A model generated the notes under the pieces. The model did not search any database. It was not told where the DNA came from and saw only the letters and a list, made by a program, of their open reading frames with translations. A stretch of 64,000 bases of DNA from an uncultured Cohaesibacter sp. (GTDB taxonomy: Bacteria; Pseudomonadota; Alphaproteobacteria; Rhizobiales; Cohaesibacteraceae), in the NCBI RefSeq assembly GCF_963666525.1, contig NZ_OY762905.1, positions 3,141,501-3,205,500 of the forward strand, written 5' to 3'. The translations under genes and the position numbers were made by a program. Shown here one piece after another: positions 41,706-42,715 of this stretch. The stretch's first letter is position 1, and each line of letters opens with the position of its first letter.

Positions 41706-42325
41706 TCGCTTGAGCCTTGATAGGCTCCTGCAAACCAAATCCCCCGCCCGTTTGCCAATGGCAAGAGGTCCCATGTCTGCTGCATGGCTGCGGTAAGCTG
41801 TTGCCGGGCAACTGCGAGCCATGCCTTTGCGGGATGGCTACACGCTTTGGGACCGGAAAAGCGGCTCTGCACGTCAAGAACAAATAAAATTATATCGATG
41901 CAAACGCTTGATTTGCATTTTTCGACCTGTGAATTGTCCAGGTTTGACCGCGCCGCAAAGCGGTTTCGCCCTCTTTTGCGAGGCATTTGCACCGCTTCAA
42001 TGAGGCAAGATATCCCAAAATGCTCGGCAGTGGAAAATACATAATCCGTTAGTCGTAAAATAGACGATTTTTAAGATATTGAAAAATAACGATAAAAATT
42101 TCAATTTGGCGACATCATGCAAGAAATGCATGGCTAAAATTGAAGGTGCTCTGGAATTGCATGATCGACAAGACAGCTATGCAAACTTGGGGGGTGTAAA
42201 ATTTTGAGCCATGATCTATATACATAATCAAGAAAGCGATGAGGAACTTTAAAACGAAATACTCCGAAGCGCTTTTGAAAAGCAGTAGAAACCAACAAGC
42301 CACGTAGCAACAAAGGATGATGACA
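41706..42325. other. Long intergenic region before the DUF1127 gene
   Basis: No gene seen in 620 nt. A terminator-like hairpin ATGCAAA/TTTGCAT (41898-41918) with a T run to 41922 may end the folC transcript. From about 42020 to 42330 the sequence is unusually AT-rich and must hold the promoter of the DUF1127/RNA unit; a CTTG (42186-42189) 19 nt before CCATGAT (42209-42215) vaguely resembles an RpoH-type promoter, without being convincing. Confidence 0.4.
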
Positions 42326-42481
42326 ATGATCAATACCGTTGTGAAGAACTACCGTCAGTGGCGCAACTACCGCGACACCGTTGAGGAACTGAACCGTTTG
42401 AGCAACCGCGATCTCAGCGATCTGGGTATCTCGCGTTCGGACATCAGCGAAATTGCGCGCGAAGCTGCTATCACTAAATAA
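42326..42481 (+). CDS. Small DUF1127 protein (CcaF1-like)
   Basis: A 51-residue, Arg-rich protein too small for most gene callers. Its C-terminal half, ELNRLSNRDLSDLGISRSDI (21-40), is the DUF1127 signature (L-x-x-L-s-D-R-x-L-x-D-I/L-G-I-x-R-x-x-I). AAAGGA (42312-42317) is 8 nt from ATG 42326; two in-frame ATG codons at 42317 and 42320 are alternatives. The stop at 42481 is followed within a few nt by four hairpins with anti-Shine-Dalgarno loops. In Rhodobacter a DUF1127 gene (ccaF1) is co-transcribed with the CcsR RNAs and its product influences RNA turnover during stress; the same arrangement suggests the same unit here. Confidence 0.9.
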   Translation: MINTVVKNYRQWRNYRDTVEELNRLSNRDLSDLGISRSDISEIAREAAITK

Positions 42482-42640
42482 AAAAGTCTTTCGCTGACGA
42501 CACGTCCTAGCGAAAGCCCCAGTTTCATAGAATTCAGGCTTTTCCTCCTCCCAAAGCCTGATACGATCCAAAACTACCTCCTCCCAGTTTTGGATCCTCC
42601 AACGAAGCCCACCGGACCTCCTCCCCCGGTGGGCTTTCGT
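42482..42640 (+). ncRNA. CcsR/cuckoo-type small RNA with three CCTCCTCCC loops
   Basis: Four consecutive stem-loops follow the DUF1127 stop. SL1: CTTTCGCT (42488-42495) with AGCGAAAG (42509-42516). SL2: TCAGGCTTT (42534-42542) with AAAGCCTGA (42553-42561), loop containing CCTCCTCCC (42544-42552). SL3: GATCCAAAACT (42565-42575) with AGTTTTGGATC (42586-42596), loop CCTCCTCCC (42577-42585). SL4: AAGCCCACCGG (42605-42615) with CCGGTGGGCTT (42626-42636), loop CCTCCTCCC (42617-42625), then TCGTTTG, acting as terminator. The stems differ in sequence while the loops are identical, so the loops are selected. They are complementary to Shine-Dalgarno sequences and match the cuckoo family (CcsR1-4 in Rhodobacter). 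The mature RNAs probably arise by processing of the DUF1127 mRNA. Confidence 0.88.
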
Positions 42641-42715
42641 TTGTCTGGGCATTGCCTTTCTGGGTCGAAACGGCTCTTCTCTTCCCTGGTTTTGCATAAC
42701 ACTCTGTTTCAAATA

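Follow-up and report, generated by a model that had tools for sequence, protein, structure and literature searches.

A DUF1127 gene and an ar14-family RNA behind a conserved candidate LysR-type operator in Cohaesibacter

The DUF1127 gene and its four hairpins

The stretch of DNA analysed here (64,000 nucleotides, hereafter the window) carries on its forward strand a gene for a DUF1127 small protein of 51 aa at 42326-42481, with an alternative ATG start at 42317, whose product matches Pfam PF06568 at 55.4 bits against a cut-off of 23.3. Behind it, folding yields four hairpins on the same strand at 42486-42517, 42534-42561, 42565-42596 and 42601-42641 (hairpins 0 to 3), and the last three each expose an exact copy of CCTCCTCCC as an anti-Shine-Dalgarno (aSD) loop (42544-42552, 42577-42585 and 42617-42625), with no others in the 64-kb window. 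Shuffles of the whole window also gave three CCTCCTCCC matches in 3 of 100 cases, a test that does not consider the packing of the copies into 82 nt. The Pfam match, the exact loops and the fold confirm what a sequence-only reading had described, namely a 51-residue DUF1127 gene followed by four hairpins, three of them with this loop. We found no meaning in folC and trxA as the neighbours.

Hairpin 3 has a strong, GC-rich stem (-25.2 kcal/mol by folding) and a broken T run, and is the probable terminator hairpin of the unit; our terminator scan did not call it. Hairpin 0, whose stem pairs CTTTCGCT with AGCGAAAG, has no aSD loop, and no T run follows it, so that by the usual rule it should not be an intrinsic terminator. 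Picked by its exact 3' arm, it is present in 19 of the 37 genus units examined (among L001-L033 and L227-L244), all 19 of which also have an unchanged 5' arm and differ in the loop, whereas in the aSD hairpins it is the other way round. The earlier description of the stems as unrelated in sequence thus holds for hairpins 1-3 and fails for hairpin 0, where it is the stem that is constant and the loop that is variable. A second such unit of the same genome, described below, is without hairpin 0, and its arm was not found in the one same-family unit (L235). In 107 loci from named genomes (among the matches listed) the exact 3' arm stands up to 120 nt before the first loop only once, in L127, and there without the 5' arm. 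Other hairpins take the place of hairpin 0 in L047 and L148.

Family membership, covariation and linkage with DUF1127

Rfam assigns 42529-42641 to the ar14 (NfeR1/cuckoo) sRNA family RF02344 with 92.5 bits over the full model (positions 1-123; cut-off 58.8, E 1.5e-15), and this match and one tRNA are the only ones at the gathering threshold in the window. Three hairpins with identical aSD loops on divergent stems, as found at 42529-42641, are how PMC10746234 describes the family, and the loops are described in PMC3927594 as well. The earlier proposal of a cuckoo/CcsR-like RNA behind a CcaF1-like DUF1127 gene was right, and it was mistaken in treating three loops in one run as a departure, since these are the hallmark of the matching ar14/NfeR1 family. 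The short same-strand DUF1127 gene directly upstream, a trait of ccaF1-CcsR, is likewise present, and DUF1127 together with a CcsR-like sRNA has been termed the "CIN1 locus" (PMC10253847, citing Reinkensmeier and Giegerich 2015). Both the loop architecture (PMC10746234, PMC3927594) and the DUF1127 link (PMC10253847) are thus already in print, and within ar14, a known family of bacterial RNAs, the locus is unexceptional; the putative shared control site before DUF1127 is nonetheless informative.

Like ar14/NfeR1 of Sinorhizobium meliloti (Smr14C2), the RNA has three hairpins each with CCUCCUCCC on divergent stems, a length of about 110-123 nt and a candidate LysR-type site upstream, and it differs in the extra hairpin 0, in the DUF1127 gene between promoter and RNA, and in missing the CTTAGAC-N17-CTATAT promoter immediately before the RNA. 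With ccaF1-CcsR1-4 of Rhodobacter sphaeroides (cuckoo RNAs, CIN1 locus) it shares a short DUF1127 gene followed by same-strand aSD hairpins, whereas there we meet four CcsR RNAs, a CcaF1 of 71 aa and an RpoHI/RpoHII promoter, and here one three-loop RNA, a protein of 51 aa and a candidate LysR-type operator.

We examined 37 of the 40 ar14 matches in the genus and aligned 35 units (33 distinct), leaving out L233 and L251 (contig end or cut) and L235 (another genus of the same family). Of the cells in the 35 pairs that make up the three helices, 95.8% are paired; shuffles give 89.2% and slid partners 28-56%, and both sides have changed at 15 pairs. Of five measures, four had an observed value that none of 500 shuffles reached; for the remaining one, further pair types, the value was 31 versus 28.4 and 52 of 500 reached it. 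In hairpin 3 the three outer pairs are unpaired in 9-13 rows. The three stems are supported by covariation, and conserved pairing, whose absence the earlier reading had named as the result that would count against it, is what these 35 units show. For a wider sample we took at least 120 stretches from named genomes and kept 107 loci, dropping 6 with less than 600 nt upstream and 7 short-span clusters, the titled ones of which are not from Alphaproteobacteria and which we treated as low-complexity chance. These 107 loci (among the matches listed) and that of the window gave 325 hairpins with 255 distinct flank pairs and a mean stem of 8.25 bp, which fell to 3.47 bp on exchanging right arms between hairpins.

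The genome holds two ar14 matches in total. The second (76.5 bits) follows a gene for a DUF1127-like protein of 49 aa, which only just attains the Pfam cut-off, and forms a paralogous unit in which the core of hairpin 3 is identical letter for letter and hairpins 1 and 2 differ. Its first loop lies 24 nt after the last sense codon of the DUF1127 gene, and a separate promoter outside the gene therefore has no room. A third DUF1127 gene (132 aa, L199/L004) has no ar14 match.

DUF1127 precedes ar14 in 35 of the 37 genus units examined. Among the 107 named loci (among the matches listed) 44 have it on the same strand at up to 600 nt upstream, compared with 391 of 20,000 random positions, where the loci compared are not independent and shared descent inflates this linkage as it does the operator counts given below. 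In 26 of these 44 the distance from the last sense codon to the first loop is 19-38 nt. Eight of the 107 have DUF1127 downstream only (L048, L056, L061, L064, L068, L070, L095 and L096), and in 55 the profile did not detect it, a number that may include divergent copies escaping the profile (both among the matches listed).

The candidate operator and its possible regulator

Upstream of the DUF1127 gene we observe a candidate LysR-type operator, TTGCAT-N16-ATGCAA at 42157-42184 on the forward strand, with its core CAAGACAGCTATGCA at 42169-42183, which is the sole such site in the window. The stretch reads TTGCATGATCGACAAGACAGCTATGCAA and is conserved in the genus, and the LysR-type core stands at 0-1 mismatch before DUF1127 in all 35 linked genus units. 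Twelve of the 15 core letters agree with the Brucella VtlR box as quoted in PMC12595884, and its reverse complement fits the form GCAT-N3-TG-N3-T given in PMC7486931. In the 5.18 Mb genome CAAGNCAGCTATGCA occurs exactly at two places, each before a DUF1127-ar14 unit, and allowing 1 mismatch adds a single site. Judged from the window alone the VtlR box was not significant and was set aside on that basis, as it is 3 mismatches from the Brucella form, with 9 such sites where 4.15 are expected, and GCAT-N3-TG-N3-T has 10 matches. Units L246 and L247 of the genus have the operator (2 mismatches) directly before the RNA, and DUF1127 was not found in either; the gene has apparently been lost there, and the adjacency of operator and RNA is as a shared promoter predicts.

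The wider loci tell the same box apart from permuted motifs, comparing the 44 linked loci with 63 'unlinked' ones, that is, the 55 without detected DUF1127 plus the 8 with DUF1127 downstream (all counts among the matches listed). At up to 3 mismatches the Brucella VtlR box is present in 36/44 linked and 30/63 unlinked loci, with permuted motifs giving means of 0.3 and 0.54 (maxima 2 and 7), and at up to 2 mismatches in 23/44 and 22/63, with permuted means of 0.01 and 0.02 (maxima 1). A merged motif, CAANNCAGCYATGCA, is present at up to 2 mismatches in 37/44 linked and 36/63 unlinked loci (among the matches listed), as against 55 of 1500 random 325-nt stretches, and 25 of these 36 unlinked matches stand 73-80 nt before the first loop. 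It is also found in Aliiroseovarius, Rubellimicrobium, Cognatiyoonia, Falsirhodobacter, Thalassovita, Yoonia, Tabrizicola, Loktanella and others, genera which by record name we take to belong to Rhodobacterales. By sequence match, enrichment of a putative VtlR-like operator thus extends to ar14 loci in Rhodobacterales and in Hyphomicrobiales outside the genus, whether DUF1127 is present or not. We did not find a VtlR/LsrB-type operator common to DUF1127-linked and unlinked ar14 loci in print among open-licence PMC papers. In Rhodobacterales loci such as L039, L045, L062 and L084 the operator is repeatedly followed by a further stretch resembling ATTGTGCA-N3-GCAGCA, which may be a second half-site or a -35 region.

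A second LysR-like palindrome, ATGCAAGAAATGCAT at 42117-42131 on the forward strand, is patchily conserved, and holds at 42118-42131 the LsrB form TGCA-N6-GCAT published in PMC10746234. Of 38 unit rows, 37 from the genus and 1 from the same family, 7 have this form; counting either strand, it is present in 34/44 linked and 22/63 unlinked loci (among the matches listed) and in 89 of 2000 random stretches. Downstream of the operator, at 42216-42221 on the same strand, lies a -10-like CTATAT without a good -35, which may serve as promoter, CTATAT being the -10 quoted for NfeR1 promoters too (PMC10746234).

Immediately before the RNA the promoter picture is different from that of NfeR1, as the best of 13 positions for the RpoD promoter CTTAGAC-N17-CTATAT in 42326-42540 has at least 4 mismatches; this promoter is a trait described for NfeR1 homologues and no criterion of the Rfam family. 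Two sigma-70-like matches, each with 4 mismatches, fall in 42326-42530 (at 42452 and 42506), while the 276 nt upstream hold 16 with up to 4 mismatches, the best with 3, and a stricter promoter scan called none on the + strand. The view that the ar14 sRNA is independent of the DUF1127 gene, being merely adjacent and transcribed from a start of its own within or behind that gene, could draw on the two weak matches, on the 55 of 107 loci (among the matches listed) without DUF1127 within the tested distances, and on S. meliloti NfeR1, which has its own RpoD promoter (PMC10746234). We nevertheless consider this decidedly improbable, as both matches are weaker than the best upstream, a transcript from 42506 would start inside hairpin 1, the stricter scan left the + strand empty, and the operator precedes DUF1127 in 35/35 linked units.

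Within the promoter region of the window one can also pick out by eye CTTGGGG-N16-CCATGAT, which in our view resembles RpoH sites. Such a site would suit a stress unit of the CcsR type controlled by an RpoH-type sigma factor, with the LysR-like palindrome secondary or belonging to another regulator, and an RpoHI/RpoHII promoter does drive ccaF1-CcsR1-4 in R. sphaeroides (PMC10253847). The CTTG is lost in L033 (AATG) among 10 aligned genus units, however, and the LysR-type core is kept in 35/35, so that we regard control by RpoH as unlikely and favour a LysR-type regulator.

A candidate for that regulator is encoded elsewhere in the genome, where the order trxB, LysR gene, ar15/AbcR-like RNA is the same as that reported around vtlR in Agrobacterium (PMC7486931). 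LsrB is reported to activate NfeR1 (PMC10746234) and VtlR to activate three DUF1127 genes (PMC12595884), and LsrB is held to be unique to Rhizobiales (PMC11975290). Each of 20 genomes searched gave one clear best match to the LysR gene, the next matches being at 28-34% identity. In 7 Hyphomicrobiales the best match has 59-65% identity and trxB adjoins it in 7/7; in the 13 others identity is 45-50% and trxB was found beside it in 0/13 within about 1.5 kb (less for L224), so that there only the best match, at 45-50% identity, argues for orthology. Co-occurrence with ar14 was dropped as evidence, as the LysR gene (E <= 1e-60) is near-universal at 369 of 397 genomes of the order and ar14 is found in 159 (89 over cut-off), which makes the comparison uninformative.

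The AbcR/ar15-like RNA behind the trxB-LysR pair (L196:2521-2657) scores 31.1 bits against an Rfam cut-off of 40. AbcR/ar15 sRNAs beside lsrB/vtlR share with ar14 a C-rich aSD loop, and AbcR genes are reported LsrB/VtlR targets; they are a separate family, with matches elsewhere in this genome that are below cut-off, the one just given being the best placed. GCAT-N3-TG-N3-T is absent from the intergenic stretch before the AbcR-like gene.

Transcription, processing and possible targets

Taking these observations together, we think it likely that the locus is a DUF1127-ar14 transcription unit, a CIN1-type cuckoo locus, that is LysR-driven and whose sRNA is cut from the 3' UTR and silences GGAGG-type starts. 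An LsrB/VtlR-type LysR regulator would bind 42157-42184 and activate a promoter with its -10 near 42216, giving one transcript that comprises DUF1127 and, as its 3' UTR, the ar14 RNA, and that would end at hairpin 3. Since DUF1127 stands between promoter and RNA here, the RNA is probably a 3'-UTR product. RNase E is the probable enzyme for a cut that would fall near 42529-42533, within the A/U-rich linker preceding hairpin 1, and the DUF1127 protein may assist it. The linker after hairpin 0 ends in GAAUUC immediately 5' of hairpin 1, which presumably suits the preferences of RNase E, and the aligned genus units have similar A/U-rich letters at this place. A precedent is CcsR, which is matured from the ccaF1 3' UTR by RNase E and CcaF1 (PMC10253847). 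The freed sRNA of about 110 nt would then pair through its three equivalent CCUCCUCCC loops with GGAGG-type translation starts and so silence mRNAs.

More tentatively, we suggest that an ancient LysR-controlled module of operator, promoter, optional DUF1127 gene and aSD RNA may underlie rhizobial NfeR1, the Rhodobacterales ccaF1-CcsR arrays and those DUF1127 genes that VtlR controls. Operator and RNA would have stayed fixed while the DUF1127 gene between them was lost or retained, and hairpin 0 may be a site, added in the genus, that a protein or nuclease recognises. If so, small protein and sRNA would be two outputs of one regulator. The locus joins LsrB activation of NfeR1 (the sRNA) with VtlR activation of DUF1127 (the protein), which the papers cited here treat apart. 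The role of DUF1127 proteins is disputed, RNA being the reported binding partner for CcaF1, and protein for those of Agrobacterium and Salmonella (PMC12501420), and a shared operator makes a role in aSD RNA maturation or action directly testable.

As to targets, ntrB is a proven NfeR1 target in S. meliloti, but here its leader offers only GCGGAGAGG and a weak duplex (-10.3 versus -24.1 kcal/mol for a perfect site), so that ntrB is not supported as a conserved target. The full complement of the loop before a start, GGGAGGAGG-N4-9-ATG, occurs at three places in the genome against one for a reversed-pattern control, too few for a test, and we rejected it as a target list. The rarity of such full-length sites, and the strong GC-rich stem of hairpin 3, would suit hairpins that act only in cis, protecting the 3' end of the DUF1127 mRNA and terminating it, with their C-rich loops bound by a protein. 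We think this very improbable, considering that the RNA persists in two genus units without detectable DUF1127 and that the loops of NfeR1 are reported to silence in trans, independently of Hfq (PMC10746234), and we retain silencing by the freed sRNA as the preferred reading. Two of the three GGGAGGAGG sites lead into short frames, 25 and 15 codons long. The third (L186:1501-1518), 3.7 kb past the end of the window, has a cellulase-family gene of 388 aa (PF00150, GH5) 6 nt downstream (G000:C1:3209177), which by its sequence is one plausible candidate target.
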